Positions 14,413 through 61,390 of a DNA stretch of 64,000 nucleotides are shown here, one piece after another. Below the pieces are notes generated by a model. That model was not told the DNA's origin, searched no databases, and was given only the letters and a program-made list of their open reading frames with translations. Position numbers and translations under genes: made by a program. The stretch's first letter is position 1. Every line of letters starts with the position of its first letter. Source of the DNA: Lantana camara (lineage: Eukaryota; Streptophyta; Magnoliopsida; Lamiales; Verbenaceae); contig CM074858.1 in the NCBI GenBank assembly GCA_037501455.1, positions 102,272,001 through 102,336,000 of the forward strand, written 5' to 3'.

Positions 14413-16472
14413 GCCTTACGTACCTCAATGGATACCTTACCTTGCAACTCGACATATGCTTTTACGTACCTCTCCGTGTCATCCTAAGTCATATAATGTT
14501 GGAGAAGGGCACAACTTGCACAAAGGCACACGGTTTGGAGCATAGCCTTGTTGTAAAACGTTTCAAGCTTATATACGCTCATACATATAATTCAAAACCT
14601 TTAACCTTATGAAAAAGCCATAAACGTATCATATAAGCACATATCTATTATATAAATATAATAGTATAGTCGCATGCGGGCTTAAAAATGAGCACATAGG
14701 GTTGTAGGTAGCATTAACTAAAAAGAAACAAACATAAACCTCACCATAGCAAATGTAGGTAAAGTCCAGGGCCAAAAGGAGCAAACGAACACCTAAACCT
14801 CGGGTTCAACGATGCCCGGAAGAGGCTCTGTAACAAAAGAACATAATACCCGAGATTTAGACTCAATCATGTACCAATTAGACGCTCGACAATGCTTATG
14901 AATGCAATGAATGCATATGAAGTGCATAAACGTACCACTTCAGACATATCGAATCATAACTCGTTCAAATCATATCAAATTGATCCAAAAATCTAATACA
15001 AGCAAGTTAACACATAATTTAGCATGATAATATCAATTAGAAGTCATAAATGAAGCAAGAGAACAACGAAACAAGCGAACGAAAACGGAAAAACACAGCA
15101 GTCACAAAAAGGGGGTGAGACACGGCCATGTCACCACCACAACACAAAATGAGACATTCCCATGTCTCGGTACAGAACTGAAATGCCCTTGAGACACGGC
15201 CATGTCGCCTCCACAGCACAAAATGAGACATGGCCATCTCTCGGTACAGAAACTCGGGCCAAAGGGACACGACTGTGTCTGCTACGCGAGGGAAAAGCTT
15301 CACCAAAATGTTTTGGTTTCTCTATGGAAATGAGCTCCAAAACCTTTGTTCCACCTTCATAACTCAAGTAACAATATAAAGGAATACAAAGGAACAAAGA
15401 AATCACAAAATCATACAAGAAAAACACCCCAAATTCAGCTCCAAACATGCATCATTAAACCGGCAAGAAGAAGAGCAAAGAAGTAAGAATTATACCAAGT
15501 TTCTCCCAAGAACTTCAAAAGAGAATTAATGGTAATTCATAATATATCCAGCTACCATCAATATGGAGCAAATAAAAGCAATAAATGAGTTAAGATGATC
15601 AACATAAATAGCTCTAAACTCATACTAGGCAAGAGATGCATTAGTTCTTCCAAAACTCAACATAACCTATATTCATCAACTCTAGCATAATCATAAATCT
15701 CTAACATGAAAGCATGATTTAAAGAGTGAAAAATGATCACAAGAACAAGGGTATCCAGATTCCTAACTTACCTTCAAAGAGGGGAGCAAGAAAGGATCAA
15801 ACTTGAGCTAAAATGGGGCAAAGATGGAGGTGTGCTTCAATGGCTTCTCTTCCTTCCTTTCTCCTTCACTTGGTTCGAATTATGTCAGCTATAGGAGAGA
15901 GAGAGGGCTGATTAAGGTGTAAAATAGTCAAAACAGGGACAAGGTATGAGTGGTCTAGCTCCAAGTGGCTCATAGGTTCGTTATAGGTACGTATGGAAAA
16001 AATCCACATCGTTGGTGGTCGAAACGACATCAAAAAAGTACAAAGCTTATTCCATTGGATCCGAGTCATCGATTTGAGTCCAATGGCGAAGACGAAACTT
16101 GACTCCGAGTTCCCGAGCTCAAGTTATGAAGAAATGACTCAAGAGTGGCCAATTTACAAAAAGGCCCAAAAGTTTGAACAAAAGTTCAATTAAGTCCAAC
16201 CAAGTTCAAACAAGTACAAAACAAGTTTAAAACACACAATTAAGTCCTAAATTCATATAAGTCACATATATCATGAATTTAGCATGCTCGGGATTCAAAT
16301 TCATAATTCACAAATTCACAAGTCGCAAGAATTCAAGTCTTAAAGTCGCTTTGGCAAATTCTTATCAAGTAGTTCAAATAAATGCATCAATTAAATAAAG
16401 ATTAAATGCAAGTATGAAAAACAAACTCACACGTTGCACTAACCTATATGTCCGGACAGACGGGGTGTCCCA
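14413..16472 (-). repeat. LTR-d: truncated 3' LTR
   Basis: The right end (minus-strand start) reads TGGGACACCCCG after the polypurine tract, where LTR-e has TGTGACACCCCG. It matches 20425-22487 along its length, then stops at 14413 where chromovirus integrase sequence begins. The missing part is the R/U5 side. Confidence 0.85.
15117..15280. repeat. Palindrome array A in LTR-d (word GAGACATGGCCATGTCTC)
   Basis: Five units start at 15117, 15151, 15191, 15225 and 15264 (spacings 34, 40, 34 and 39 bp). Units read GAGACACGGCCATGTC, GAGACATTCCCATGTCTC, GAGACATGGCCATCTCTC and a weaker fifth. Spacers alternate between a CACAAAAT-ending type and a GGTACAGAA type, so the repeat is a dimer of about 74 bp. 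Confidence 0.9.
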
Positions 16473-18599: not shown

Positions 18600-19106
18600 C
18601 GGTTGTTTCTTTGGCCTTCACCGGTCACCCTCATCCAATTTGTGTTTCGGTGATCCACATCCATAGCATCGTCCCCATCTCTTCTAAAAATTCTCATAGG
18701 TATGAAAGATCCTCCCACAATGAGCACATGGTGGTTGCTCCGTTGGCGAAGAGACTTTTACTTTCTTCTTCCCTTTCGAAACCGATCGAGAACTCTCTCG
18801 ATTTCGTTTTGATCCCAATCCCGAGCTACTTCCCGACTCAATTTTTCTTGCCATATTCTTGAGGTCCTTCCTAATCCCTTCCATGATGTTAGTCTCTTAG
18901 ACTCCCTTTGATCTTTGTGAGGGCACGAGTCGAGCTTATGATCGGACACACTGCATCTAAAACAAGTCCCTAACCGTCTTTTTACAATTCTCGTAGGTGT
19001 GGTTTGGTCCTCCACAATGAGTGCACAAGACTTATCCTTCAGTAGGAGGTGCACTCGATGAGGCTAAGGGGCCGTTTGTGGTAGATTGAGGTGTCTTGCC
19101 GTGCAT
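18600..19106 (-). pseudogene. Short gag-like fragment with duplicated zinc knuckles
   Basis: A minus-strand ATG (19106-19104) opens MHGKTPQSTTNGP, reaches a stop after 24 codons, then a knuckle pair read CTHCGGPNH and, one frame away, CFRCSVSDHKLDSCP (CX2CX4HX4C). About 298 bp later the same pair recurs as CAHCGRIFH and CYGCGSPKHKLDE. Between them lies a basic, charged stretch (SGLGSKRNRESSRSV). Zinc knuckles bind RNA in gag nucleocapsid. The N-terminal capsid part of gag is absent. Stops and shifts make it non-functional; a truncated gag of a non-autonomous element is the best reading. Confidence 0.65.
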
Positions 19107-19404: not shown

Positions 19405-19416
19405 GCTCTGATACCA
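19405..19416 (-). promoter_or_regulatory. Primer binding site (initiator tRNA-Met)
   Basis: Minus strand reads TGGTATCAGAGC, 8 bp inside the LTR-e end. It is the usual plant tRNA-iMet primer site for first-strand synthesis. Confidence 0.9.
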
Positions 19417-19424
19417 CTTTAGGA

Positions 19425-22400
19425 TGTAGCGCCCTGAGCGGCAGGCCACCACATCCCCCGCACCTAGACCCAAACCCAAATATGAAATGAAAGTCCATAC
19501 ATGAGCCCAAGTTTAAGCGAACGGGGACCTACACGCACACGCTAGGCTAAGCAGGGCTAAACACAGACAGAGCGCGCAAAAACAATAACGTAAAGTGCGG
19601 AAGCAATAATACATTATCGAAAAAGAGCTCTACATGAGCCTACATAACATATATAAATGGCCTCAAGGCCCAAATTACATTAAGCAGTACCAAATCTCCC
19701 AAGTATACAAGTTAAAGTCAAATACATATCCAAATATCCAAACGAGAGAAGTATGTATGCAGACTAGACCTAAACTCGAAAGTACGACTCGACAACGGCT
19801 ACGAACTTCCCCGCCTAGCTCGAGCAACCTGAAACTAAAGTGTTAAAGAGAGGGTCAGTCACAACTCGACTGAGTGAGGGGGGTTAACGAACACCCACAC
19901 ACTATACAAATACAGAGCAGAGCACATAAAGATTATGAACAGGGAACACACTAAACCATTTTCGAAACAAACTTATACTTCATAATGAAAATAGAGCATA
20001 ACAGAGTTTAAAAGAAAATCCTGTCCCGTTCCATAATCAACGTAACGTACAAAGCTTGGCGAGTATGAGCATCCAACCCTTACTCCTCAACAATCGTAAG
20101 AAAACCAAGATAACGTAAAACGAATCCAACCCCACAACCATGGTGTTTCGAGAATCAAACCCTCTCCACCTAATTTACCAATACACATGGGGTAGCTAAC
20201 CCACATTGTGCCTTCTCCGGTTATCCACCGAAGGCTCAAAGCACCACGCTTCCTCAACCTCCAAGAGTCGCGTGTAAGCACTTCAAATGGAGACCTTGCA
20301 CAGGCTTAAACCGATGGCCCTTGCCATCCCGGGCATCCTTACCCACGTCACTGGGGCCCAAATATAATTAAATCATCCCATATAAAACTTACTTAACACG
20401 CTATACAAGTAAACATAACTTACGTACCTCAATGCATACCTTAACTTGCAACTTGGCATATGCTTTTACGTACCTCTCCGTGTCATCCTAAGTTATATCA
20501 CATTAGAGAAGGGCACAACTTACACAAAGCTACGGTTTGGAGCATAGCATTGTTGCAAAATGTTTCAAGCTTATATACGCTCATACATATAATTCAAAAT
20601 CTTTAACCTTATGACAAAGCCATAAACGTATCATATAAGCACATATCTATTATATAAATATAATAGTATAGTCGCATGTGGGATTAAAAATGAGCACATA
20701 AGGTTGTAGGTCGCATTAACTAAAAAGAAACAAACATAAACCTTACCTTAGCAAAAGTAGGTATAGTCTGGGGCCAAAAAGGAGCAAACGAACACCTAAA
20801 CCTCGGGTTCGACGATGGCCGGAAGAGGATTTGTAACAAACGAACATAATACATGAGACTTAGACTCAATCATGTACCAATTAGAGGCTCAGTATTGCTT
20901 ATGAATGCAATGAATGCATATGAAGTGCATAAACGTACCACTTGAGACATATCGAATCATAACTAGTTCAAGTCATATCAAATTGATCCAAAAACCTAAG
21001 ACAAGCAAGTTAACACATAATATAGCATGCTAATATCAATTTGAAGTCATAAATGAAGCAAGAGAACAACGAAACAAGCGAACAAAAACGGAAAAACACA
21101 GCAGTCACAAAAAGGGGGTGAGACACGACCATGTCACCACCACAGCACAAAATGAGACATGGCCATGTCTCAGTACAGAACTAAAATACCCTTGAGACAC
21201 GGCCATGTCACCTCCACAACACAAAATGAGATATGGCCATGTCTCGATACAGAAACTCGGGCCAAAGGGACACGAACGTGTCTGCTGCGCGAGGGAAAAG
21301 CTTCACCAAAATGTTTCGGTTTCTCCATGGAAATGAGCTCCAAAACCTTTGTTCCACCTTCATAACTCAAGTAACAATATAAAGGAATACAAAGGAACAA
21401 AGAAACCACAAAATCATATAAGAAAAACACCCCAAATTCAGCTCCAAACATGCATCATTAAACCGGCAAGAAGAAGAGCAAAGAAGTAAGAATTATACCA
21501 AGTTTCTCCCAAGAACTTCAAAAGAGCATTAATGGAAATTCATAATATATCCAGATACCATCAATATGGGGCAAATAAAAGCAATAAATGACTTAAGATG
21601 ATCAACATATATAGCTCTAAACTCATAGTAGGCAAGAGATGCATTAGTTCTTCCAAAACTCAACATAACCTAACTATTCATCAACCCTAGCATTATCATG
21701 AATCTCTAACATGAAAGCATGATTTAAAGAGTGAAAAATGATCACAAGAACAAGGGGATCCAGATTCCTAACTTACCTTCAAAGAGGGGAGCAAGAAAGG
21801 ATCAAACTTGAGCTAAAATGGGGCAAAGATGGAGGTGTGCTTCAATGGCTTCTCTTCCTTCCTTTCTCCTTCAGTTGGTTCGAATTATGTCAGCTATAGG
21901 AGAGAGAGAGAGGGCTGATTAAGGTGTAAAATAGTCAAAGCAGGGACAAGGTATGAGTGGTCTAGCTCCAAGTGGCTCATAGGTTCGTTATAGGTACGTA
22001 TGGAAAAAATCCACATCGTTGGTGGTCGAAACGACATCGAAAAAGTACAAAGCTTATTCCATTGGATCCGAGTCATCGATTTGAGTCCAATGGCAAAGAC
22101 GAAACTTGACTCTGAGTTCCCGAGCTCAAGTTATGAAGAAATGACTCAAGAGTGGCCAATTTACAAAAAGGCCCAAAAGTTTGAACAAAAGTTCAATTGA
22201 GTCCAAACAAGTTCAAAACAAGTTTAAAACAATAAGTCACATATATCACGAATTTACCATGCTCGGGATTCAAATTCATAATTCACAAATTCACAAGTCG
22301 CAAGAATTCAAGTCTTAAAGTCACTTAGTCAAATTCTTATCAAGTAATTCAAATAATTCATATAAGAAATAGAATTACAATATAAAATTCAAATAAATGC

Positions 22401-22487
22401 ATCAATTAAATAAAGAATAAATGCAAGTATGAAAAATAGACTCACACGTGGCACTAACCTGTACGTGCGAACAGACGGGGTGTCACA
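19425..22487 (-). repeat. LTR-e: 5' LTR (3063 bp)
   Basis: On the minus strand it starts TGTGACACCCCG (at 22487) and ends GGGCGCTACA (at 19425). It carries the U5 hairpin CAGTC-ACAACTC-GACTG (19856-19872), the ACCGGGAAAG-like block, palindrome array B, and CpG-containing dyads near its end. It is the only full-length LTR here joined to a PBS on the minus strand, so it defines the family's length. Confidence 0.9.
21120..21283. repeat. Palindrome array B in LTR-e (word GAGACATGGCCATGTCTC)
   Basis: Units start at 21120, 21154, 21194, 21228 and 21267 (34, 40, 34, 39), exactly the spacing of array A. The second unit is the perfect 18-bp palindrome. Differences among units are mostly CG to TG or CA. 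Confidence 0.9.
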
Positions 22488-26255: not shown

Positions 26256-27287
26256 TATGAAGCCCGAGCGTGGGTCCCACATCCCTCGCACTAAGACCAA
26301 ACTCATATACGAATATAGTCCGCATACAAGTCTAATCCTTGCAAACGGAGGCACGACACGGACCCTGGCTAGGCAGGACTAACCCTGTACCAACAAATTC
26401 AACTTCCAACCAGACTAAACGAGCAAATACCAAGAGTTGCGGAAGCATAGATAGCAAGTCTAGCAAAATAATAAATCCAACCCAACTTATGTACAAAGAG
26501 TCACAAAGTACGAGTATATAGCCCAACCGGCCTCCAAGATACAAAATAAAAGTGTAATTAAGTGGGTGGTACAAAGTATGCGTGTGACTCAAGCTAGACA
26601 CGAAAATACGCTAGACATAATGCAAACTCCCGCCTAACTACGCCAGCAACGAGCACCTGAGGGACAAAAAGGGGAGGGGTCAGTCTCTACAAGACTGATT
26701 GAATAGCATAATAAGATATAGAAAGCGGTAAAGTCATGCAACCATAATTCCATATAAAGTTTTAGAAGGAAAGTAAAACAGGAAATCAAGTTTAGAGTCG
26801 ATATATGGAATTATAGTATCAAGATTTATTCAAGTCAAGTGAACAAGTGGCTTGGCGAGTGAGTATTCTCCAACCTTACTCCTATCGTATACAAGTCAAG
26901 ATCTTATTAGGTTTTTATGCAAGGATTAGAGTTATCACTTATCACACTGGGTATTCATTTCAAGTGCACAATTACTCCTTTTTCCTCCGGGTGCAATGTG
27001 ACGGGTAGCTAGCCCTCACATCCACGACAAAAACAATGGACGGTGGGTCCATGACTCCCAAGGTCCGGAATCCCATCAATCTGCCAAACCACCTGACGGA
27101 CATCCGGGCTGCTCCAACAATGTTGTGACTTATGCAAGAGATGGCCGTCAGCCTATGCTTTCCCAGTTCTCTCAATACACAAGCGTCTGGGCCCCATGAA
27201 CGGTAACAGTAGTCTCGCCAAAACATGTCAAGATCAAGTCACGTTTGCTTTTAAAAACAGAACCATCTTTAAAAAATAATATATATA

Positions 27288-27302
27288 TATATATATATAT
27301 TA
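27288..27302. repeat. AT microsatellite
   Basis: Pure alternating AT in LTR-f. Confidence 0.8.
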
Positions 27303-28004
27303 TAGATTTTTTGTTAAATCATCATGTAAAGGGTCGTAGGGTTTCATATATTAGTCCTAACTTCTCCTCACCTGAATAAGACAAAAGAAGGACAACTGGA
27401 CTCCTGAACCCTACAAAGTTGGCCCGCCACCACCCTAAAAATCCTCTGGACAAGAAAAACAAGACACGTGTGGAACACGACTCAATATGAACCAATTACG
27501 ATGCATGGAAAATGAAATAGATGATATGAGATGCAATTGAAGTTATAATATGTCATGAACAAGTTCATGTGCACAATTAATGTTCCATGTAATTGAAAAG
27601 AAGAATTATGATTAATTCATATGAATAAATGAATATCAAATAAATACAAGGCATGAAATTAGTTTTACATTCTATGTTTCGTAAACTAAACTCAATACGT
27701 TTAATATAATACATTGAACTATAAATTAATATCACGTGGGGATCATATATATATCAATTAGCAAACAATTACAAGGTATGAATCGGGTCTCAATTCAAAT
27801 CTCAAGAATTAGATTTAATACATACAATATAACTCATTATTTCATGAAATAAATAACATGTTGAAATCATAAACGGGACGGGAAAACACGAAATAATTAA
27901 ATTAACAATTGAAATAAGTCATGAAATAACAAACAAATGAAATATATATCATAATAAAAAGGAAATAAAACAATCGAGAACTAATCCATTCCTCCAAACT
28001 TGAT

Positions 28005-28224
28005 GGTAATGGGGGTTACCAAGACGAAGAGTAAAATGGGTAATGGGGGTTAACGAGTGTAGGAGGTTTTCTCCTTCAAAAGATAGCAAGGTAACGGGGG
28101 TTAACAATTTAAAGGCCAAAGGTGGTAATGGGCATTAACAGAGGCAGGAGTTGCATTCTTCGAAATTGAATGGGGGTAATGGGCGTTACCTCCCTACAGT
28201 ACAAAATAGGTAATGGGCATTACC
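28005..28224. repeat. Palindrome array H in LTR-f (word GGTAATGGGCATTACC)
   Basis: Six units start at 28005, 28039, 28090, 28124, 28175 and 28209: spacings 34, 51, 34, 51 and 34 bp, exactly. The last unit is the cleanest dyad, GGTAATGGGCATTACC; others read GGTAATGGGGGTTACC, GGTAACGGGGGTTAAC or GGTAATGGGCGTTACC. Sequence between units is not conserved to the eye. Confidence 0.92.
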
Positions 28225-29236
28225 CAAGGCAAAGCAAAATCCCCTGTTTCTTCTTCTTCTCGGTGACAACACAACAAAGCTTATCCATGTTTCTTTGCTC
28301 GAACCAAACACCCCAACCACAAATAAAACACTAGCTAACCTAAGTAATTAACTAATATAACTCAAGGAAACGTGTATATGAATCACATATATCAAATAGA
28401 CTTCAATTAATCCAAGGAAACATGCATTAATTCATCCAAAACCTTCATATGAAACCCTTAAATGAAAAATGATCACACCTGGTCCAAGCTTCATATAACT
28501 CATGCTTTATGTATGAAATCAACTCAAGAGCATCACTTAAGTCTCATATTAAGTCATGGAATGCAAAGACCCTAAAACCCTAACATTGTTCATGAATTCA
28601 TCAATTAAATATGCATGATCTTACCTTGAATAAGTGAAAAGATGGAGAAGATGAAAAGATGAAAGTTGTAGCTTGAATTCTTGTTGAAAAGAGAAGAAAA
28701 TCTTGGCCTTGCTTCCTTCCTTGGTTGGACCGAAATTGGAAAGAGAAGAAATGGAGAAGTCTTGTGCTTTTCTTTGTGTATGGAAGATGAAGGGGAAATG
28801 TATGTATAGGAGTATATATGCACTATATAGATCAAAAAGGGGAGAAAAGGGACAGAATTACAACTTAGTCCTTGGGAATTTTAAATAAATGCAATCAAGT
28901 ATCAAGTTTCATGAATGTTACATATGAGTCAAAATAAATTTTCAATTAAGTCCAAAGGTTTTCAAATGTTTCAATCAAGGACAATTGATCAAGAATTCTA
29001 AAAAAAATCGATTTTAGTATATCACTTAGGCATGCTCGCGAAAATTGCATACGCTATCCACAGAATAAGATTCACAAAAGAAGGAATTTAAAATCACATA
29101 ATTCACAGGTATTCAAATTAAAAGAATTAAATAGTGCAATTAAAGAACGAAAAGGAATTAAATAAATCTTAAATCTCAAAACTCACATGCGTGGTACGCG
29201 TACCTGACTTGCTGGAAAACGGGGTGTCACAGGAGC

Positions 29237-37365: not shown

Positions 37366-40288
37366 TGTTGAATTTAATAGACAAAGATTGGGGGAAAGAA
37401 TTGGTATTCATTTTTCTTGTGTATCGGAACAATAGTACAATACAAATATTAATAGGATAATCCTCCTAATCTCCATGTAGCACCCCGGAGTGCAGAGCAC
37501 TACACCCCCCGCACTATAGCCCGACACATGTAACGAAATGGAAACTCCGCACACGCATCAAGCTATAGTGAACGGGTGACAAACAAAACTCACGCACTAG
37601 CTAGGCGGTCTAAACCCTAAATCAGAGTGCGCATCAAAATCATAACTCAGGCGGAAGCAACATGATCATTAAATAGACATATAATATCCCACTAATTCAA
37701 ATAAACACATGATATACCGACATACTCTTCCTGGGCTAAATAAATTATACAAGTTCATGAATTCGAAATCTTATACATACTCATACTTATACATAGTACC
37801 AAAGGATAAAAGTAAAGATGCAGAATACAAAAGACTTGAACAACTCAAAAGAAAACCACCTCCTAGCTCGAACTCCCGAACGAACACCTATAACTCAAAG
37901 AACAAAAGGGGAAAAAGAAGACAACGAGGAGGGGTCAGTCCTAAAGACTGGTGAGGGGCTAACACACTCACACGTACATATATATAAAGCAGACCATATT
38001 CAAAGTAAGAAGATTCATGAACCGGGGTGTGGTTTTTGCATTCTAAAATATTTTAGCCCGAGATAATACATATAAAGAAAAAGGGTTAAGGCCAAAGGCC
38101 AAAATCAACCAATTTTAATAATTAGGAATCCACTCCCGTTTCCCCGAATCAAGTTCATAATCAAAATCCCACAACTCGGCGAGTACGAGCTTCAAACCAC
38201 CTAACTCCATTCATATTCAAAATCGGAATCAAAATTCAAACTAAAACATAATTCAAACACACATACCTCTTCTCCGGGTGATGGAAGGGTGGATCCTACC
38301 CTAGCCATTGTTCTCACGTCAGGGTCGTAAGTTTCATGACACTCACGCCCAAGGATTCCATCCCCCACCAAACCTCCTAGTGGGTTCAGGGTTGATCCTA
38401 TAAGTTGGAGACCGTACTTGGGAGTTACCCGACGGCCCGACACCATCCCGGGGCTCCTTTGCACAAAACTCCGGGGCCCTTCTAATTTTTCATAAGTTCA
38501 TAAATCATAATTTTCGAAAATCAAACTTATCTTTCAAAGTCATAACTCGCTATTTTCAAAAACACACACGCCAACTCTTTTTCAAAACAAATAAACGATA
38601 ATGTAGCACTCGGAACGCAAGGTAACCACATCCCCCGCACTATAGCTCAGTCCACACACGAAATGGATAATCCGTACATGAACTAAGACTATAGCGAACG
38701 GGTGACAAAAGAAAAGAAACACTAGCTAGGCGGGACTAACCCTCAATCAATTACTACAATGCATAACGAATCAAGCAAAAGCATAATATACATATCTCAT
38801 TCCATTCATTTGCCAAGTATCTAGATATAAAGTCTCAACTTTCTAAGGACAATTCATAATATACATAATCGTCATAAACAAAAGATATGCATCAAAAGTG
38901 ACTATGAACCGTGCTAGACTCGAAATAAAGACTTGACACGACTCCAATCCCGCCTAACACACACCTGCAAGACTTGAAAAGTGAGGTGTCAGTCTATGAA
39001 AGACTGAGTGAGGGGTTTAAATAAATATAAGCGCAATTACCATACAAGCTATAATCTCGGGTAAGTTTTCATAAAAGAAACAATATAAATTCAAATACCA
39101 AAGTAGTTCTCGCCCATGATTATAACTAACCAATTTACAATTCAATCAATACCATTCAATCAATCAGTGGCCCGACGAGTGAGGATAAATCTCCAACCTT
39201 TCTCCGACTGTGTATAATAATTCAGTTATTAATTAATTAGGTGACCACAGACAATTACAGTGCACAAGTAACAGTTTTAATAACCCTTTTTCCTCCGGGT
39301 GATGGTGGGATTATAAGGCCCCACCATCCAATCAGGGTGAGCGTAGGGTACATGAATCCCTATGCCAGGAACTCCTTTCCCCACTAATCTCCTAGTGGGT
39401 TCAGGGGTCATCCCAATGTAGTGAGGATAGTGCACAAGTTACCCGTCAGCCCTTGCTTTCCCGGTTGGCTCAATACACTACCCTCGGGCCCACAGTGAAC
39501 AATATACTCGCCCAATCAATCAATCACTTCAGTACAGTTCATGAAATTCGTTGAAATCAATAAGGTTTGGAAAACTATAGATATATAGATACATTTTGGC
39601 TGAAAGATCACATAGGGTTTTACGGGTTCTATATATCTAGCAATTAAACCTCACCTTTACCGACAAAACATAACAAGGATATAGCCATGGAGCTTGCTCC
39701 TCGTCAACAACAAGGACAAGTGTACGTGAGACACAACTCGTATGAACCATTTAAGATGCACGGCAAAGTCATGATCAATAAATTATGCAATAACAATTAA
39801 GAAATATCAAATAAGAGCATAATTATCAAAAAACCGAGTATATAACTCACATAAGTCACATACAGGAGCCAAGGAAGTGAAAGGAATGCAATAAGAGAGG
39901 TTTTGACAAAGTTGGGCAAAAGTTGACAGTTCTCGAGAATGCACAAGATGTAGGAAAACTGAAATATCTTGAGTTATAGAAGTTGGAATTGAGTTTTTTT
40001 TGTTGGATATGAAACTAGACACATAGAACTTTTCGAGGATATATAGCTCGTATCCTAGTTCAAAATGAGGAGAAAATGGCGTACGCTCAAAGTTCGGTGA
40101 TTGCAGATTTCTTGTAAAGTGGCGATACAAAAAAAAAATTGATTATATCTCAAAAATGACAAAATATATTGAGATGATTCCAAATGTAGGTTGTTCTAGA
40201 CTTCAATAGGTTTCCAACGATTCAAAAATCAGGTCAATCAGAGTTCTTTTAAGGGGTAAACGGGTATGTGGAAAATGTACTGAAAGCA

Positions 40289-40378
40289 GACACGGGCGTG
40301 TGAAAACTGTCTGTCACGACAGCGGGTACCCACACGGGCGTGTGGGAAATGAACTAGGGTACCACACGGGCATGTGGG
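40289..40378. repeat. Palindrome array D in LTR-i (word CCACACGGGCGTGTGG)
   Basis: Three units have GGGC cores at 40294, 40336 and 40368 (spacings 42 and 32). The middle one is an 18-bp dyad, CCCACACGGGCGTGTGGG, off by one central base; the third has GCATG for GCGTG. Confidence 0.9.
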
Positions 40379-40869
40379 AACAATCTGGGTGAAAAACAAG
40401 GGAAAAACAGGGTATATGCACGGGAATTGACTCCCAAGCCTTCCCAACACCAAATCAAGGCAAGAAATCAACTCAAAACTATTACCTATCATGCATATGA
40501 CTCATATATATCAATTAGACATCATATAATCCAAGGTAACATGCTTGACCCATCAAGAAATCATCACTCAAACCCTATAATATTTCATGTCATCCAATCT
40601 TCCATATTCTTCAATAACTCATGCAAGCATTGAAATAAAACGATTCTAATCATACTCTTAGCCATGAATAACAAGAAATCATGCTTAGATCACAAACCCT
40701 ACATCATATAACTCAAGAGATTCCATCAATTTCTCATTTTACGTTGATATGAAAGAAAGAAAGGATGAAATGATAATGATGCTTCAACTTGTGCAATTCT
40801 TCCTTGAATCAAGCTTGAGATTTTAAGATGAAATCTTCCCTTTTCTTCCTTGGTGTGATGAACCGTGAT

Positions 40870-40880
40870 TGTGTGTGTGT

Positions 40881-40913
<33 letters not shown>
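40870..40913. repeat. GT microsatellite
   Basis: About 22 GT units with one A interruption, near the leader side of LTR-i. Confidence 0.95.
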
Positions 40914-42014
40914 AAGTCTTGATTAAAATGGATGAAATGAAATGAGAGATGAATGTATATAAGATGATACAAAAGTCTTCCACTAACTCATGTGAATCAT
41001 CACTTTTTGCAACTAAGTCCTTCAATTAATTGAATGCATGCAATCAAGTTTTATTCCATGGAAAATGATCAATTAAATGCCTGCATACTAATGCAATTAA
41101 GTTCATATACTTAGAAAAAGATCAAGTAAGGTCACATATAAGCAATTAGGCACTTAATAATTAATTTATGTAATTTCTCACATTAACAACAATTTCATAT
41201 AAGTTCATGGAAATATAATGCATATAACGTTATGAATATTAATATAATATCACATAACACATGAATGGAAAAATCGGGGCCTTACAGATAATATAGCTTA
41301 CGTATACATAAAAGCGTTTTTCAAACGTTTCATAGCAAACGGGCCAAATCCCACAAAATACATATTGAACACGTATCTAAATACATATATATACCTAGGT
41401 CGCATGGGGCTTAAATCACACTTAGGGTTGTAGGTCATAATAACTAAAAGAACAAAACCTCACCTTGTCGAACCCACGGACAAAGCAAATCGGAACACTC
41501 TAAAAGACCACCTCCTTTCCTCGAGACAAAGCTCCGAACAAAACAAAGGACGAAAGACAAACTTAGACTCACATATGAACCAAATAGACGTTCGGCATAT
41601 GCATATGGATGCAAGAGATGCATAAGAATTGCAACGAATTAACATATAACGCATGCATGTTCATATCTAATCATAAGTCTTATAAATCATATCAAATAAA
41701 TTCATAAATTTCATATAGCATGCATAACATATCAAACAACATAGTGAGAAAGCATTTCATATCATACAAGAGCAAAGAACAATCATGCAAGACACTTAAA
41801 CGAAGTATGAAGTCATATACGCACGTTGAAGTAGCATATTGCACGTATGAGAGCATAAATAAAAAAAGGAGCATGTAAAGAAAGCCATAAATTCATAACG
41901 TAGCACGTAACACATAATACATAGAGTTAACAAAGCATACAGGTTAAAAACGAGAGCAAACGAACACAAAGCAAGCAAGAAAATACAAGGCAAACACACC
42001 CACGCAAGAGCAGC

Positions 42015-42211
42015 GTCACGGCCGCGCCACCTCTCATGCATGGAGAGGTAGCGGCCGCGCCACCACTCCAGAACCTCCACTGGAGGACCTCCGCGGCCGT
42101 GACATCTCCACAGCACAAAAGGGTCACGGCCGTGACACCACAACAGCAACAAAACAACAGCAGCGTCGCGGCCGCAACAAGGAAAGACCCTTGTGTGGTC
42201 GCGGCCGTGCC
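42015..42211. repeat. Palindrome array C in LTR-h (word GTCACGGCCGTGAC)
   Basis: Six units have GGCC cores at 42020, 42053, 42095, 42128, 42170 and 42203: spacings 33, 42, 33, 42 and 33. The fourth is the perfect 14-bp palindrome; others end GCGCC or GCAAC. Two extra dyads lie between units (CCTCTC...GAGAGG at 42030-42048; CCTCCACTGGAGG at 42074-42086). The spacer CTCCACAGCACAAAA matches the spacer in array A. Confidence 0.93.
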
Positions 42212-43503
42212 GCTGCACGCAGCAGGGAAAAACAGAGCAACAATAGGCAAAACCAACCCAAAACCAATCCTAAATCCTTTTAGCATGCAAATTCAAGTCC
42301 ATGCAACAAAAACACATCAAATTCATGCCATATTCCATGCCAAAATCAGAGCTACATGCAAAGGAAGGGGGAAGATGGATCAAACATGTCTCCTATTTCA
42401 TTTTCATCAAAATGCATTAATGGAAACCTTCATTAAATGCAATGTACTTCTGAAATGATTTCATACAAGCATTAATGGATGTCCTAAGATCATTTATGAT
42501 GCATCAAACAAACAAGAATCAAGAGTTTTCATGCCAAATTCATCAAATAACTCTAAAACCTTACTATCCATCATGCTATCCATAACTCTATCAATTCTCC
42601 AAGAAATTCAACAAAAGAGCACTTAAAATAAATAGGAGAAGATGTAGAATACATCATGAACTAACCTTTCAAATTTGAGGCGAATCGGATGAGTGTTGAG
42701 CTCAAAACTTGGAATGTGAATAGTGTTTCATCCTTTTCTCCTTCTCTCTTGGATGAACTGATGCTTCTCTTCTTCTTTTGGGTGGGGGTCCGAATTAGGA
42801 GCTGATGGGGTGATAGGGGTTTAATTAGGGTCATATGGGTTCAAGTTTGGGGCGATTCGGTTAAGAAACGGGTTAGATATGATCAAAACGGGCTAAGGGG
42901 CCAAAGCTGTCACACGGGTCGGGTTTCGGGCGAAATTTGAAGGATCAAATGGGCTTCAAAAATTACAAAAGTAGGTTCCTTAGCTTCCATTCTTCATTAT
43001 GAGTCCAACGCCTCTTCCGGAATTCGAATCCGAATTCCCGAGCTCAAGTTACGCCTTCCGAAACACAAGGCGCGCTAAAACGAGTTAGGCCCTCGTATCC
43101 CTAACAATCAAAACGGTTCAAAAACCGTATCAAACAAACTCAAAAACATAAAAAAACACATAGGCAAGTTCATAACAAACATATTTCATGCATAACACAT
43201 ATTTAGGAGCAAATACGGGGTCATACGGATCAAAAGGGGGAACCAAACGGGGTCGAAACGAACAAATACCTAACAAAGTGTAACAAATAATTAATCAAAT
43301 AATCAATTAGGTGTATAAACAATTTAATAAACACGTAAGAGCATAAATAAATAAATTAAACGTATGTGAAACACTCTCGAAAGTACGTACCTGTACGGCC
43401 GGACGAGCGGGATGTTACACTCCAGCCCTAATTACACCCGCTAAGTCGGGAAATGAATCAATTAGAATTCCTTCCATATATACAAAAGATATTATCAACA
43501 CTC

Positions 43504-48395: not shown

Positions 48396-49899
48396 GGATC
48401 GGTAATGAAATGTTCCATTTGTCTACAAAAATATATAAAATTAGCAACAATAATGTTTGTTGCCTTCTTGTATCACATTTTGCAACGAAAATATATCATT
48501 GTCTATTTTACATACATACGCAACGATATTGACTTTTCGTTGCCATGAACTTTTAGTAACAAGGATTTGCCTACCAAGCCGACAACAAAAATATTTCATT
48601 GTTAATAGAATTGGCAACAAAATATTATACTTTTGCCGATAAAAATATTTGTTGGTACAAGTGAAATTTCTTGTAGAGTTTATCCAAACCAGTCTATGTG
48701 CACTATACGTAAAGTTTTCCCTAACTCAATTCTCATTTCCAGCATTGCATCCTCTAATATGATATTCTAAAGAACAAAACAAGACAGAGGAAAATATAGG
48801 ATTAGTCAAATGACTCATGGGAATTATCACTGTCACGCCCCACGTCTTCGTGCGTATAGGTACGCGACATGTGTGTATTTATTTTAAGTTTTTCTATGAT
48901 TTTAATTTCATTTATATATTTTAAATTGATTTATAACTTGAAATTGCTTATTATTTGAAAGTTATGGACTGAATTGAAAATAAGCTTTGGGGCTTATTTG
49001 TCACTTTTTAAAAGTTTAGGGACCTATTTGAAAAATAGGAGACCATGAACTGTTTTACGAATATCTTGAGCTCGAAAATTTGGATTCAAATTTCGACTTC
49101 ACCGTTGGACTCATTTTGACAATTCGGAGCCAACGAAACTGACCTCGTAACTTTTCAATGTCGTTTGAACCTCCGATGAAGCAAATTTCTACCTATATGA
49201 CCCTTTTTGCCCCTCCCCATTTCTTTCTCTTGGTGACCCATTTTTTGGCCCATTTCTTATACTTAATAGCTGAATTTATTCCTTTCTTCTCCCCATAAGC
49301 TTCGAACTGCTGCAGCTGCAAAGAACAAGAAGAGAAACAAGAAAACCCTTGCCATTTATCCATCTTTTGAGCTCAAGACTTGATCAAACCTATTTCTTTC
49401 TTTAAGGTAAGATTTGATTTGAATTCCTCTCATTCTTATGAATCTTTTCTTCCATAAGAATCACGTTATGAGTTAAGGATTCATGGAGTTTGAGAAATTA
49501 TATGAATAGTGGGGGTTTAAGCTTGATTTGAATTCTATGATCATTCTTGCATCTTGTTGAGTTTTAAGACATGATATGTGATCCTTATAGCTTCCTTCTT
49601 GCTTTTAAATGCATGAATTACTTGGTAATTGAAGGATCATTGAATCACCATTGATGGAGCTTGAGTTATAGCATGAAAAACTCGAATTTTTAGTTAAGTT
49701 TTCTGCACTTACACAGCCGCTCATGTCTTGATTATTGGAGGGCATGTTTTTCCAAGTTTTTGTGAAGATTTCTTTACCTTTTCTTGCTACTTGTTGCTGC
49801 TTTCCATTGTTGATGTTGCTACTGCGAAGGAACAGGGGAAACAGGGGTGTATGTGTGTTTGTTCAGCTGCAAACTCGCGAAGGAGATGACGGTTAGGTT

Positions 49900-50078
49900 G
49901 AGACACGGCCGTATGTGCCTTTGTGCATGAAAGGAGCCACGGCCGTGTCTCTAAGCTGATTTCGAGGGCCTAACCTGTGACATCCCCGTGTCTGATTTTG
50001 GTCTGGGCAAGAGACACACCTGTACTGAGCCATGGCCGTGTATGAAAATACACTTGAGGGGAGACACCCGTGTCTCCC
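49900..50078. repeat. Palindrome array E in LTR-j (word GAGACACGGCCGTGTCTC)
   Basis: Units are centred at about 49909, 49943, 49986, 50020, 50036 and 50068. Gaps of 34, 43 and 34, then an extra unit 16 bp on, then about 32-34. Best units are GAGCCACGGCCGTGTCTC (49934) and GAGACACCCGTGTCTC (50061). Array A/B words equal this word with CG changed to TG or CA. Confidence 0.88.
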
Positions 50079-50416
50079 ATTGAATTGAAAATTGAATGAA
50101 TATATGAACAAGAATTCTTCGTGTATTTATTGAATTGATCATTTACGTGTCTAAGTGGCATTAATTGTGCACATGAACATCTTCATAACATGATATTCTT
50201 GCTCATGCATCTCATATCATGTGTATTGCATTGCCTTGCGTCGTTTGTGGTCATTTTTTAGTCTCACACCAATTCTTTTGCACAGATTTTAGCCAGGGTG
50301 GAGTCAAGCGCGGTCAGTAGGGTTCTTGTGACGTTCTTTTGCCTTACAGGTGGGTTTCTCGTCTATTAGCTAAGAATTGACCCGATATATCCCAACGTGC
50401 AGATTTTGGTCAAAAG

Positions 50417-50438
50417 TATATATATATATATATATATC
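50417..50438. repeat. TA microsatellite
   Basis: Pure alternating TA in LTR-j. Confidence 0.85.
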
Positions 50439-51472
50439 GAGTCTTTTCACAGAGTAAATGATTTAACGTTAAAGCCTTTATTTAATGAATACCTACCTAA
50501 TGTTTTGGCAAGAATTGATTGAAATGCACTGAATGGGGGCCTTGGGACTATGTGTACGTGGTTATCCGGGAAAGCATGGGCTGACGGTGATCCCGTACGC
50601 TAGTTCCAACAACTATGGCGATACCGGCCCTCGCGAATGGAAATTGGGTCTTTGGGGATTCATGTACCCCTCTGACCACAATGCATGAGTGTTCAGATCT
50701 TGCAAGTCATCCATTAATCGGAGGGAAAAGGTGTAAATGAACGATTAAATGAATGATCGAATAAATGTGCATGAAAGATTGTTGTATAATCATGATTAAA
50801 TGAGTAATGAATACACATGGTGTGGAGATCTAGCCCTCTCGCTGGGCTTAAGTAATGACCTAATGAATGAATTTGATTGTTGTAATCCCGCACGTTGCTT
50901 TTATTAGTTTTCACCCGCTTGGGAAATGTTCTAAAAACCTCATACGGGATTATAAATTGCATGTATGTGTTTAAATTTGGCAATATTATTATATTAAGCT
51001 TGTTTTATAACCACCAATCTCTTAAAGACTGAACCCGGCATTGTTTTAAGTTTTCTTTTGCAGGATGGGAGTGCTGGCGGGAATCCAAGTCTTTCGAGTC
51101 TTGTATTAGTGTTTAGCATTTCTTTTACACATACCTCACACTATTATGAATATTATTTTGTTTATGAACACTTATGAGCGCCTTCTGTATATGATGGGCC
51201 GTGTTGGCCATTTATACTTGGAACTTGTAGTTCATTTTGTTGTATATGAAGCCTGAGAGCTCGTTGTTTATATTATGATCATGTATTGCTTCCGCTCTTG
51301 TGATTTGCTCTGTTATTGTTATTTATTATTGCTTAATTAGTTTTAAGGGTTAGCTCCCGCCTAGCATAGCAAGTGTGTTGTGTCCCCATTCGCCTTAATT
51401 TGGCACGTGTATAGATTTTTCATTTCATATACGGGTTGGGTTTTGGTGCGGGGGATGTGGCGTCACGCCGCA

Positions 51473-52496: not shown

Positions 52497-53469
52497 TGTA
52501 ACGCCCCAATTTCAGATTATTCAGGTACGCAAGACACGTGTGGGATTCTGAGAGTTAGGATTTATTTTAATTCTTTCTTTTATTAATTTCTTACCTTTCA
52601 TGAAAAATTATATGAATTATATTTCAACATGCTTACGTGAAAATATGTGGAATTCATGACAATTTGAGAATTATTGCATGACTTGAAAATGATTGTTACG
52701 TGAAATAATTGTCGAACGTGATTTAATTAACAAATTGTCCCTACATGACCTTTCTTTAAAATTCAAGGACCAAATACATAAATATTTCTTGGACTTAATT
52801 GAATTAATTGCCAAACATTCATCCTTAATAGCATGACTTATACACTTGAGGGACTTAGTTGCAATTTAACACAATTCATCAATTTCAAAATATGATGATT
52901 CACGTACCTATTTTTCTTCCATCTTCCATGATCATTTTCATTGATACCAATCCTCCATATTTGCTACCTTTCTCACCGAACCAAACTATCAAGAAGGGAG
53001 AAGAGATTTCATCAAATTTCATTCAAGATTTCCCAAGAAATTTAGGAAATTGAAGCTCAAGCATCCATAGCCACCACCTTCTTCCATTTCCTTTCACCTA
53101 AAGTGCATGTAAGTGGCTTGTGTGATCTCTTGATGATTGTGTGTGAAGCTAGGGTTTATGATTTCATGAAATACGTGGATGATTTGTTGGTTGCCACATG
53201 AATACATGAATTTTCCATGAATTGAAGCTTGAATTCTTGAAGAAATTGAGCTTAAATGATGATTTGGTGTATGAACATGAAGGTGGAAAATCTTGATGAT
53301 CATGTGTTAATTAAGTGTTTATTTTGAACTTTATGGTATATCGAACATTTATTCATGCAAATCTCCAGAAATCTTGCACTTATGTGATTGAAACTTGAGT
53401 TTTTGGTTGATTTTGGTTCTTCCCGAAGTGCTCCCCTGTTCTGCTCTGTTTCTGCAATTACAGAGGAGC

Positions 53470-53694
53470 GTGAACGGCCCTTCCCATCCCCAGTTCATTC
53501 TGGGAACGGTCGTTCCCACTCCTGTACCAAAACCGGCACGCGCATGGGAACGACCGTTCCCATTTTGGCCTTCGTGCCGGAAGGGCCGTTCCCAGCAAAG
53601 TCGCCATTTAATTTTAAAAGCGTGGACGTGTTTCGAGAGAGGCATGGGAACGGCTCATCCCATTTTACACTACAGCCTGGAACGGTCGTTCCCA
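53470..53694. repeat. Palindrome array F in LTR-k (word TGGGAACGGTCGTTCCCA)
   Basis: Units have cores at 53476, 53508, 53552, 53584, 53652 and 53684: gaps 32, 44, 32, 68 and 32. Best units TGGGAACGGTCGTTCCCA (53501) and TGGGAACGACCGTTCCCA (53545) are near-perfect 18-bp dyads. A decayed unit may fill the 68-bp gap. Confidence 0.92.
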
Positions 53695-54548
53695 CCTCGC
53701 TGACAGAACAAAATTTTCTGCATAAAATTAAGAATTTCAATTTCAATTCCAATGCCTTTATTGATCCCAAATTGTGATTATATGATATATTACATGTCAT
53801 AACATGGTGTTTATATGCTACATTGGGTATTGCACGTCATTTCGTTACTTGATCACGCCGTGCGTCCTATTTGGTATCATTCTTGAGTTATTGTCTCACG
53901 TGTACATAATGTCCCATTTTCGTGTCCAGTTCATGCATCCTTGAGTCGTCATGTCGCCTGTCAGGTGAGGTTTAATTTCTAGTTACATAGAACCTATACA
54001 ACCCTTATGTGAGATTTCGGCCAAAAGGTATTTATATCTATAATTTCCATGAAATTTACTCATGATTACAAACAAGCCATGTTCATGAAAAGTAAGCCAT
54101 GTATCGTGCATGTTTTGGCGAGTAAGCATGATTTTTCACTTTGGGCCCCGAGGGTTAGTGTATGAGCCAACCGGGAAAGCATAGGGCTGACGGGTAACTC
54201 TATACTCCCCTCATCATGTGGGATCACCTCTGAATCCACCAGGAGGTTTGGTGGAGGAAGAAATCCCGTGCGTGGGAGCCATGTTCCTGACGTACACCAT
54301 GTCATGGATGGTGAAGGCTCACTACCTTCCCATCATTGGAGGGAGAAGGAGACTGGGGACGGGTCCAGCACCACGGGCTGTCCTCGGGTTATTGTATTGA
54401 TTACACTCATTGATTGTATAGGTTGAATACACTATCGCACTACTACACGGTAACTGAATTGCATGGTCACCTATTAACTAATATAGCAAGCATGTATTGT
54501 TCACTATTGGTGTAAGGTTGGAGATTTGCCCTCACTCGCCGGGCCACG

Positions 54549-57933: not shown

Positions 57934-58434
57934 CCACGTATTGCACGAAACTGAATTAAACAAATTGCTAAATTGGATAGTTGTATTCTCGGGCAAAGAA
58001 TATTCCATTCTTGAAATTATAATAATTTCCTTTCTAAAACTTTACCCGATAGTATAACTTGCATGTTATTTGTGAGAATATTTATTTACGCCCCTCACTC
58101 AGTCTTCATAGACTGACGCCTCCCCCTTTCAGGTTCGTGCAGGTGCATGCTAGGCGGGAATCGAGTCGAGTCCAATCTTTATAGTTGAATCATGCACAGT
58201 TCATTTATTTATTATTGCATATGATTTATTGTTATTGTTATTTATTATGTATTTTGGAGATGATAATGTATTGATATATGGATATAGTGGAAATAGATTG
58301 CTTTCGATGTTGGTATTTGATATTGAACATATTATACTTCCGCTTTATTTTAACGCATTATGAATTGATTATGTGGTTTGGGGTTAGTCCCGCCTAGCTA
58401 GTTATCATTTTTTTTATTATTGTCTCCCGTTCTG

Positions 58435-61390
58435 TAACGCCCCAGTTTTCTAGTCGTTCAGGTACGCGCGCCACGCGTGTGAGTTTTGAGATTTAGAATT
58501 TATTTAATTCCTTTTTGTAATTTAATTGCACGGTTCAATTCATTAATTTGAATTCTTGTAATTATATGATTTCCAATTTCTTCTTTCGTGAATTTCAGTA
58601 CGTGAATTATATGTCTAATTTTCCCGAACATGTTTAAGCGTTTAATTTTACATAATTGCAAGAATACATGTTCATCCGTCCTTAATTGAAACTTTATAAA
58701 ATTCTTGGACTTAATTGCTAAATTGACAAGGACTTATTTGTAACATTCATGAAACTTGGTAGCTAATTGCATTCATTTAAATTCCTTGAGGACTTGATGG
58801 AAATTTCTCTCATTTCTTCCCTTATCTTCACGATATAAACATATACATACATATACACATTTTACTCTTCATTTCATATTCAAGACTCAAAGCAAGAATC
58901 ACTCCATCTCTCTCTTCCTTCCCTCTCGATCCAAACCAAGCAAGGAGGAGCCAAGAATTCATACGCTTTATTTAAGATTTTGAACTCCAAGACTATCTCT
59001 TCCTCTTCCCCTTCATCTCCTTTCTTCTCCAAGGTAAGATCATGCATATCTTTTGATGAATTCATAGAGCTTTGCTAGGGTTTTATGATTCTTGAATTCC
59101 ATGACTTAAATTGAAGTATATATGTTGATTGTGAGTTAGTTTCATGCATATTTAACTTGAGTTCAAGAAATATGGAGCATATATGAACATGGCACTCTTA
59201 TGGGTTTATTGGATGAATTTTGGATGATCTAAGCTTGTCTCCTGGGATTAAATGGTACTTAATTGATATATAAGAGTTATAGGTATGTTATATGATAGTT
59301 TTGGGTTGAATTCTTGCATTGGTTTGTTGTGAAAGTGGATTGGGAGCCAAATTTCGAGCTTGCCCTATTTTTCCCGAGCCCTTTTGTAGCTGCTGTAATT
59401 CAGGTCGCGCCCACAATCGTTTTTGTGACCATGCGACCAACAACCCGAGAGCTCTCTGTTTTTCCGTCGCGGCCGCGACTGCTTTTCAGTACAATTTTGT
59501 CGCGGCCTCGACGCCTTCAAACGAGCTACGATTGACCTGATTTTTGAACCTTTGGAAACCTCTTGAAGTCTAGAACACTCTCCAATTGGAATAACCTGAA
59601 TATAGTTTCTAGTTTGTGAGATATGATCAATTCCTTTTGGTGTCGCCACTTTACCGGAAAACTGTTTTCATCCAACTTCGGGCCTACACCATTTTAACCT
59701 CGCTTTGAACCAGAAAACGAACCATATATCACCAGAAAGATCTGTGTGTCTAATTTCATACCCAATAAGAAAACTCAATTCAAACATCTAGAACTCAAGA
59801 TATTCAAGTTTTCCTACAGAATGTACGTTTCCGAATATTGTTGGGTTTTGCCTAACTTCATCAAAACCTCTCTTCTTGCATTCCTTTCACCCTCTTGGCT
59901 CCCATATGTGAATTATATGACATATATGCTTGATTAATAGATAATTATGCTCCTACTTGACACTTCTTGGTACTTAATTGCTCAAACATGATTGTGTGAC
60001 TCCATACACTATATGAACTGAACTTGAAATAATTGAATGATATGATTACATGACTCTTTGAGATTAATTTAACCTCTTAGGTGTTAATTGGTTTCATACA
60101 TGCTAAATGTCACTTGATTGCTAGTTTTATTTATTGACATGGGCATGGTCGTGCGTCATACTTGGTCTCATATTGAGTCTCGTCTCACGAGTTCCCGTTA
60201 TTTCCTTTCTTGTCCAGTTTTTCTCCAGGGCAGAGATCATTGATCGTTTGGCACTTTCTTGTATCCTTGTCTTGTTTCGTCATTCGTCATGTGAGGTTTA
60301 ATTTCTAGATATATAGAACCATACGACCCTATGTGATGTTTTCGGCCAAAATGTATATTTATATCTATAGTTTTTCAAATCTAAAACGATTACAAGCAAG
60401 CCATGTTATTGTATTGAATCAAGTAAGCCATGCTATTGTATTGAATCAACGATGATTGGGCGAGTATATTGTTCACTGCGGGCCCGAGGGTAGTGTATTG
60501 AGCCAACCGGGAAAGCGAGGGCTGACGGGTAACTCTTGCACTATCCTCACCATTTTGGGATCACATCTGAATCCACCAGGAGGTTTGGTGGAGGAAGAAA
60601 TCCCGTGCGTGGGAGTCATGTTCCCGACGTACACCATGATTGGAGGGTCGGGTCTTGCAAGCCCACCATTACCCGGAGGAAAAAGGGTTCATGAAACTGC
60701 TACTTGTGCATTGTAATGTATTGCATGATCACCCTTGAATGTAAACTAAAGCATGTATTGTTCACTATTGGAGAAAGGTTGGAGAATTGCCCTCACTCGT
60801 CGGGCCACTAATTGAATTGAATTGAATTGATTGTATTGTAAATTGGATAGTTGTAATCTTGGGTGAGATCTTCTTAATTATTTTTTTTTTAAACTTATAT
60901 TGCTTCCTTTCATAAAGCCTTACCCGGGATTATGGCTTGCATGGTAATTCCACTAATATTTGTTTATAAACTCCTCACTCAGTCTTTCATAGACTGACAC
61001 CTCACATTTTCAGGTTGCAGGTTGCGTGCTAGGCGGGATTGAGTCGGTCTTTATTTTCGGGTCTAGCATCATTACATGTACATTAGTGAGGCATATACGG
61101 TTTTGTATCTTGGTACTTATGTATATTATAACTTGTTCTTAGAAGTGCTTGTATATATTGAAATGTTGGTCTCAGATATGTTATTTATGAAATGCATGTA
61201 TCTTATGCTTCCGTTTTAATGTTATGCATGTTGGTATTTACTTGAGGGTTAGTCCCGCCTAGCTAGAGTGTCGTTTTTTTTTTATTGTCTCCCGTTCGCT
61301 ATAGGCTTGATTCATGTATGGGTGCTCGTTCCATATGTGGATTGAACTATAGTGCGGGGGATGTGGCTACCTACCGTTCCGGGTGCTACA
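58435..61390 (+). repeat. LTR-m (2956 bp)
   Basis: It starts TGTAACGCCCC and ends CCGGGTGCTACA. It carries array G, GTGAGGTTTAATT (60291), ACCGGGAAAGCGAGGGCTGA (60508), the hairpin CAGTCTTTCATAGACTG (60980-60996), GCTAGGCGGGA, GTCCCGCCTAGC and GTGCGGGGGATGTGG. It is the plus-strand reference copy of the family. Confidence 0.9.
59404..59512. repeat. Palindrome array G in LTR-m (word GTCGCGGCCGCGAC)
   Basis: Cores lie at about 59409, 59429, 59471 and 59504 (gaps about 20, 42 and 33). The third unit is the perfect 14-bp palindrome; the others are partly decayed (GTCGCGGCCTCGAC, GTGACCATGCGAC). Confidence 0.82.

Follow-up and report, generated by a model that had tools for sequence, protein, structure and literature searches.

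Introduction

In plant copia elements of the Tnt1/Tto1 type, the long terminal repeats (LTRs) carry repeated, partly palindromic cis motifs that bind host factors and lie in U3, upstream of the transcription start. We know of no case among these enhancers in which the word is replaced between families at constant geometry. In Sireviruses (Ty1/copia), the LTR motifs are palindromic and clustered, the word varies by element and all but one have a CGG-CCG core; the 3' LTR has 3-14 copies, placed upstream of the TATA box, and the motifs often also precede an env-like gene (PMC2829016, in the excerpts available). Motifs of this type are reported in the same excerpts as absent from classic retrotransposons (PMC2829016). 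The VANC targets of Arabidopsis VANDALs are short non-coding motif repeats, specific to each family, for which a coevolution with the binder was proposed (PMC5735166, in part). Regarding introns, plant LTR elements are described, in the available part of the source, as generally intron-less apart from named cases (Ogre, EVADE, BARE1) (PMC12786077). Splicing in EVADE and BARE1 takes place within or beside gag/protease (PMC12786077, PMC3735527, both in part) and, for BARE, the spliced RNA is argued to be excluded from replication (PMC3735527, in part). Here we analyze a stretch of 64,000 nucleotides from Lantana camara (GCA_037501455.1, contig CM074858.1, positions 102,272,001 to 102,336,000, hereafter the window), where eight LTRs of one retrotransposon family contain a regular array of palindromic dyads. 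We found that these arrays extend beyond the window, that they lie at a nearly fixed distance inside an intron of the LTR leader and that their word changes between LTRs in all units and in both halves.

Results and discussion

Palindromic dyad arrays inside and outside the window

The eight arrays reported by an initial annotation of this DNA were all found at the positions it gave. They are lettered here in coordinate order, from A (15117) to H (59404), and the annotation had ordered its letters otherwise. The distance from LTR start to array is 909-1405 bp, in agreement with the ~0.9-1.4 kb from the U3 end that had been proposed. Six of the seven words listed are present exactly (GAGACATGGCCATGTCTC at 21154, GTCACGGCCGTGAC at 42123, GTCGCGGCCGCGAC at 59466, CCACACGGGCGTGTGG at 40330, TGGGAACGGTCGTTCCCA at 53501 and GGTAATGGGCATTACC at 28209), and the seventh, GAGACACGGCCGTGTCTC, has no exact copy and is matched at 49934 with 1 mismatch. 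The alternating spacing was also recovered, with paired dyads 31-34 bp apart and successive pairs separated by 39-51 bp, the exceptions being one gap of 68 bp in G and the degenerate unit of F (Table 1). A scan for perfect palindromes was discarded as sole detector, being too strict, since most units have a mismatch. Over the initial 1600 bp of each LTR from A to H, copies of the best dyad word number 5, 5, 5, 3, 5, 4, 6 and 2, respectively. The observed number was reached by none of 100 dinucleotide shuffles per LTR in six LTRs (A, B, C, E, F, G), by 2 in D and by 3 in H; therefore array H is weak taken alone. Control windows avoiding the listed arrays (n=120, over the 64 kb) gave four overlapping ones with a score of 3, all on a G-box cluster at 6028.

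In the host genome (1.27 Gb), the word of arrays A, B and F, GAGACAYGGCCRTGTCTC, has 143 exact sites and its reversed control 0. Because LTRs should not be chosen by their words, they were gathered by an anchor outside the array, formed by the acceptor and the start of exon 2 (CAGTTNTTCTCCAGGGNGGAGA), which has 2054+1949 exact sites (4003; control 0). The sample comprises 70 of the first 100 listed anchor sites out of 4003, all from contig C1; where both LTRs of an element had been sampled, the second (six LTRs in all) was removed for counts on 64 or 30 LTRs and kept for counts on 70 or 75 and for pair comparisons. At least three dyads were found in 55 of the 70 LTRs, 26 of them having six. 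Taking one LTR per element, at least three dyads are present in 49/64, against 0/320 dinucleotide shuffles. When the most repeated 14-mer was searched with no palindrome condition, it was repeated at least three times in 48 of the 64 loci, and, of these 48 words, 38 have 6-7 of the 7 palindromic pairs, 8 have 5 and 2 have 4 (3.2% of random words reach at least 6). Short (30-35) and long gaps alternate strictly in 35 of the 44 arrays of at least four units (SLSLS 21, SLS 13, SLSL 1, S being short and L long). Both the dyad excess and the periodic spacing in LTRs elsewhere, on which the initial annotation had staked its claim, are present in the sample examined, and the arrays are confirmed as real and as extending outside the window.

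Table 1. Dyad arrays, LTRs of the family and leader introns in the window (spacing in bp, in LTR sense; a slash within a motif marks a splice site; PBS, primer binding site)
Feature	Position	Strand	Spacing	Remarks
Array A	15117..15280	-	39, 34, 40, 34	5 dyads, word GAGACAYGGCCRTGTCTC; within LTR A
Array B	21120..21283	-	39, 34, 40, 34	5 dyads, word as in A (GAGACAYGGCCRTGTCTC); within LTR B
Array C	28005..28224	-	34, 51, 34, 51, 34	6 dyads, word GGTAAYGGGCRTTACC
Array D	40257..40378	-	32, 42	3 clear dyads CCACACGGGCGTGTGG and a decayed fourth beyond the limits first annotated
Array E	42015..42211	-	33, 42, 33, 42, 33	6 dyads GTCRCGGCCGYGAC; linkers mutually pairing
Array F	49900..50078	+	34, 43, 34, 49	5 units of GAGACACGGCCGTGTCTC type, one (the fourth) degenerate
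Array G	53470..53694	+	31, 44, 32, 68, 32	6 dyads GGGAACGGYCGTTCCC
Array H	59404..59512	+	33	2 clear dyads GTCGCGGCCGCGAC and one decayed (first unit)
LTR A	starts 16472	-		3' LTR
LTR B	19425..22487	-		5' LTR, PBS at 19416
LTR C	26277..29231	-		3' end approximate
LTR D	38602..41286	-		nested within LTR E
LTR E	37476..43419	-		split by LTR D
LTR F	48831..51466	+		3' end approximate
LTR G	52497..54547	+		3' end approximate
LTR H	58433..61390	+		TGTAACGCCCC...GGGTGCTACA, then PBS TGGTATCAGAGC at 61401
LTR L1	10959..12779	+		solo, GTGTA each side, intron-less
LTR L10	32923..36328	-		same family; conserved acceptor TTTATTGTACAG/TTCTTCTCCAGGGTGGAGA at 34514
LTR L11	57933 to about 54552	-		same family
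Leader intron, LTR H	59034..60217	+		donor CAAG/GTAAG, acceptor TTTCTTGTCCAG/TTTTTCTCCAGGGC; holds array H
Predicted leader intron, LTR F	49407..50285	+		TTTAAG/GTAAGA ... TTTTGCACAG/; holds array F
Predicted leader intron, LTR C	27446..28624	-		TTCAAG/GTAAGA ... TTTCTTGTCCAG/; holds array C

Position of the arrays in the leader intron

The limits of the LTRs were set from starts TGTRACRCCCC, ends GGTGCTACA and the PBS. An AAG/GTAAG donor is present at 576-711 bp in LTRs A, B, C, F and H, and the site is altered in D, E and G. In the solo LTR L1, exon 1 (...CACTTCAAG) is fused at 11551/11552 to TTATTCTCCAGGGCGGAGA and there is no array; the sequence after this join, TTATTCTCCAGGGC, stands behind TTTCTTGTCCAG in H and behind TTTATTGTACAG in L10. 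The expected spliced junction is AAG/TTNTTCTCCAGGG, and the exon-exon junction pattern AAGTTNTTCTCCAGGGNGGAGA has 96+121 sites in the genome. Among 20 junction candidates fetched, 17 are exon-exon joins and 3 bear the intron with a mutated acceptor. One intron-less copy (L086) matches L016/L017 at 100% identity along 90 bp of exon 1, and these two have a 1083-bp GT-AG intron with a GACACG array inside. Ten pairs of junction sites are 4.83-5.05 kb apart, and intron-bearing pairs of the GGAACG class with both LTRs fetched (n=4) are 5.78-5.84 kb apart; the shorter distance is therefore as expected if both LTRs had lost an intron of ~0.8 kb. LTRs lacking exactly the GT-AG intron indicate that the leader intron is spliced, and that spliced RNA was reverse transcribed and returned to the genome. 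The intron-less copies are scattered over the exon tree, which is in favour of a repeated origin.

The donor was located by likeness to the intron-less exon 1 in 39 of the 75 copies (the 70 sampled and 5 window LTRs), so this subset is a selected one. GT is found at the mapped base in 29 of the 39, one base off in 4 and at neither place in 6, and the mapped introns are 736-1267 bp long. All arrays with a mapped donor (36/36) lie wholly inside the intron, downstream of exon 1. The distance from donor to first unit is 367 +/- 10 bp (range 344-394, 30 LTRs), whereas that from the start of the last unit to the acceptor is 250-806 bp (30 LTRs). With a standard deviation of 10 on the donor side against 199 on the acceptor side, array position follows the donor side. 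An upstream enhancer in U3 is not supported, since the array is instead ~370 bp inside the spliced leader intron.

No dyad array was found in three more LTRs of the family in the window (L1, L10 and L11). Upstream of the L10 acceptor (36328-34514), words of CCGGCG type are repeated by eye about where relatives have their dyads, and they are non-palindromic. Tandem repeats were also observed in two of these dyad-less LTRs, of ~102 bp in L10 (33737-34253) and of ~170-180 bp in L11 (56362-56797). Several LTRs have a second donor-like sequence, (C)AG/GTGAGG in the conserved GGTGAGGTTTAATT, 35-80 nt into exon 2 (11622, 53964, 39655, 34434), as a possible second leader donor. In addition, junction anchors stand mostly every ~2.69 kb at G000:C2:59437713-59470963, suggesting a tandem array of LTR-derived units.

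Word classes and their possible reader

By half-site, the 55 arrays of the sample fall into ten word classes: GGAACG 35, GACACG 6, AACACG 3, GTCGCG 3, CAAACG 2, and one array each of ATCCCG, ATCCTG (a decayed form of ATCCCG), TCCACG, TCCCCG, CACACG and TACCCG. Two more are found in the window, GTAACG/GTAATG in array C and GTCACG in array E. The CG-NN-CG centre is common to all classes, and variation outside of it is symmetric. Both CGs of the centre are intact in 131/261 units, and the next commonest states are CG/CC 46, CG/CA 17, TG/CG 13 and CG/GG 13. At a non-word identity of 0.7-0.8, word identity is 0.91 within a class (169 LTR pairs) and 0.64 between classes (21 pairs); the values at a non-word identity of 0.5-0.6 are 0.86 within (67 pairs) and 0.62 between classes (110 pairs). 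These values bear out that the word is kept within LTR classes and switched between them. Both halves of the dyad change together, as claimed earlier. LTRs D and H are identical at 16/18 linker bases and 86/102 non-word bases and at only 14/28 word bases (words against non-words, Fisher p=0.0006, in a comparison picked after seeing the data). The linker 'tagttcattt' accompanies CACACG and AACACG words, and 'tgctttcag..caatttt' accompanies CAAACG, CACACG and GTCGCG words. Replacement of the word in place seems clearest where linkers are common to arrays in this way.

A possible explanation is that the array is an operator read by a dimer. The typical LTR of the family has a short leader exon, a GT-AG intron and a second exon, and, ~370 bp into the intron, a regular row of operator-like sites, usually 4 to 6 and arranged in pairs, each of the form N4CG-NN-CGN4 with two symmetric halves. 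A dimeric DNA-binding protein would read these sites on double-stranded DNA, and the array, as a promoter-proximal intronic enhancer or as a boundary, would maintain the activity of the LTR promoter. When a subfamily meets a factor with another preference outside CG-NN-CG, the word would be replaced in all units and in both halves. The fixed pair spacing, the donor distance, the CG-NN-CG centre and the symmetry of the outer bases are in keeping with a protein that binds double-stranded DNA as a dimer, and we give recognition by a protein together with promoter-proximal intronic enhancer activity about an even chance. The data show the arrays, their geometry, their place in a spliced intron, and words that are kept within classes and change in block between them; the protein itself, the enhancer activity, the position of the promoter, the start site and the cause of the switch are what we infer from these patterns. 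A bolder extension, which we consider speculative and rather unlikely, is that the intronic word may be an address, a mutable password read by a dimer that would separate the promoter or the unspliced RNA of one subfamily from those of another. The reader could then be a factor that diversifies fast and is supplied by an autonomous partner or by a set of host paralogues, and the apparently non-coding elements would stay with their partner by switching all units at once.

The same words could also result from neutral concerted evolution, where a chance palindrome is copied by tandem duplication, slippage or template switching in reverse transcription and the words drift. In arrays A and B a 74-bp module is duplicated and its linkers are similar, as such copying would leave, and recombination is evident from the mosaicism of the LTRs. 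However, between units of arrays A, B, C, E and G identity is 0.72-0.85 in words and only 0.27-0.37 in the bases 3-9 bp outside, which favours selection on the word over plain tandem duplication. Also, pairs with the same word keep their high word identity even at the lower non-word identity given above, and donor distance and spacing are constant across word classes, so that neutral copying is already disfavoured and we hold it very unlikely. In this sense, of the selection or gene conversion proposed initially, selection gains from the conservation of the word, while some word differences are whole-array exchanges by LTR recombination.

A spacing of nearly 3 helical turns and of about 7, together with the free spelling outside CG-NN-CG, would agree with a structural signal in the DNA that depends on symmetry and spacing alone, be it a cruciform, nucleosome phasing or CG-rich stiff points. 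Nevertheless, pure structure does not require that the units of one LTR have one spelling in common, and this is the explanation to which we attach the least probability, a very small one.

A role at the RNA level is attractive because the words occur only in unspliced RNA. The words would pair in the unspliced transcript or between RNAs (dimer linkage, packaging or splicing control), any self-complementary word would work and the units would have to match; indeed, self-complementarity survives the change of spelling. Arrays out-fold their fully shuffled versions in 16/16 tested (z -1.9 to -9.0), and extra pairing of linkers was seen in E (z -6.6), L033 (-4.4), L064 (-3.9) and, weakly, L053 (-2.3). 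In array E this excess over linker-shuffled versions is found on both strands, the linkers being complementary, unlike in the other seven window arrays. On the other hand, linker pairing has z above -2 in 13/16 sampled arrays, and among the eight of the window only E is strong; RNA structure was thus rejected as a general cause, linker pairing being limited to few arrays. Regarding sense-strand mismatches in the dyads, G.U and A.C number 34 and 57 in the sample, and 10 and 11 in the window (with two F units out of register); G.U is not favoured over A.C, which suits recognition of DNA rather than RNA, although decay of dead copies weakens this comparison. Since the constant CG-NN-CG centre is not predicted by pairing alone either, we consider an RNA role unlikely.

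Nature of the elements and weight of the evidence

No Pfam match above the cut-off was obtained for one set of ten internal open reading frame (ORF) pieces, nor for the 10 scanned among the 34 ORF pieces that come from three internal regions (3 members). Neither a pol with RT-RH-INT order nor a chromodomain was found in the pieces scanned. The examined members therefore look non-coding (four elements, each in part), and the autonomous partner of the LTR family was not found. Three mid-element pieces from widely spaced LTR pairs, viewed by eye, have apparent nested insertions including a copia-like fragment. Set against the large non-autonomous LTR element (LARD) type, defined by LTRs, PBS and polypurine tract in the absence of coding capacity, the A-B element has a purine tract adjoining 16473 and the PBS at 19416. 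A CCHC-like gag piece at 18761-19063 gave no significant homologue. The PBS TGGTATCAGAGC and this CCHC-like piece are hints that we presume to be of Ty3/gypsy type (Tekay/Del-like), and a gypsy descent of the elements is plausible. A copia gag match at 47553-47903 was rejected as part of the family, as it belongs to another element. Elsewhere in the window, six CACGTG palindromes within 76 bp (6027-6102) form a G-box-type cluster directly before a TA-rich stretch, in a region whose features we take to be those of a copia-like LTR. An isolated perfect 22-bp palindrome, GCGGTGCGGTGCACCGCACCGC, lies at 10262-10283.

For elements of this kind the array might instead be an epigenetic target, either the landing site of a VANC-like anti-silencing factor acting in trans or a hairpin source of small RNAs used by the host. 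The intact form of the word contains two CpGs in all ten classes, and, in the excerpts available, VANC motif arrays of VANDALs differ between related families (PMC5735166) and small RNAs are drawn to palindrome clusters of maize Sireviruses (Bousios 2016 via PMC10760457). Against this, the 10 scanned internal ORF pieces showed no protein domain, which means that any VANC-like factor would need to come from elsewhere, and a pure silencing target would be expected to be lost rather than held at constant geometry. We therefore find an epigenetic target improbable as well.

Returning to the operator read by a dimeric protein, several observations weigh against it. Fewer than three dyads were found in 15 of the 70 sampled LTRs, and the sample covers only the first part of contig C1, with an exact anchor that favours one clade, to which A, B, E and F do not belong. 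The LTR pairs behind the word identities are non-independent, as both LTRs of some elements are included, and many pairs with different words have no significant word deficit (e.g. wD-L074, words 0.81 and non-words 0.76). Because the LTRs are mosaics, C being like H upstream (0.67) and H like D downstream (0.76), part of the word variety is array exchange between LTRs; in L063 and L014, for instance, the flanks match and the linkers do not visibly. Finally, intron-less and array-less copies cluster in the exon tree (L080/L081, L087-L090, L078/L082/L083), so that some of them may not be dead ends and could have multiplied; the trees were interpreted without support values.

Comparison with known systems

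In the literature searched, which leaves out most subscription papers, palindrome arrays are nowhere described from a leader intron of an LTR, and six of the array words searched as strings gave no match. Relative to these papers, the location of a dyad array in such an intron is new. One genome perhaps holds thousands of natural variants of a single regulatory layout (4003 anchor sites, with arrays checked in 70), in which the spelling of the putative dimer site varies while number, spacing and position hold. This may provide a ready test of the coevolution of cis site and reader in selfish DNA. An intron within an LTR is documented as well, together with copies that indicate reverse transcription of spliced RNA and, as this process removes the array, constitute natural array-minus controls.

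Ogre, EVADE and BARE1 share with this family the presence of spliced retrotransposon RNA; in contrast to what the available parts of those reports describe for EVADE and BARE1, the intron is here in the LTR leader and the spliced RNA appears to have re-entered the genome. The VANC targets may be used as a working analogy for a motif that coevolves with its binder, with the difference that VANDALs are DNA transposons encoding the binder, that their motifs YAGTATTAY and AGTTGTMC are non-palindromic and that an intron around the motifs is not mentioned (PMC5735166, in part). Judging from the excerpts available, the LTR palindromes of Sireviruses are the closest known case. As in Sireviruses, a palindromic word is common to the units of one LTR and differs between families. 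Regarding the core, CGGCCG occurs in many words here, as do ACGGGCGT, CGATCG and CGGTCG, the shared centre being CG-NN-CG. Unlike the Sirevirus clusters upstream of the TATA box, the mapped arrays are all downstream of exon 1 and within the intron, given the start site that we infer, and they consist mostly of 3-6 copies, paired at 31-34 bp, in elements without an identified pol.

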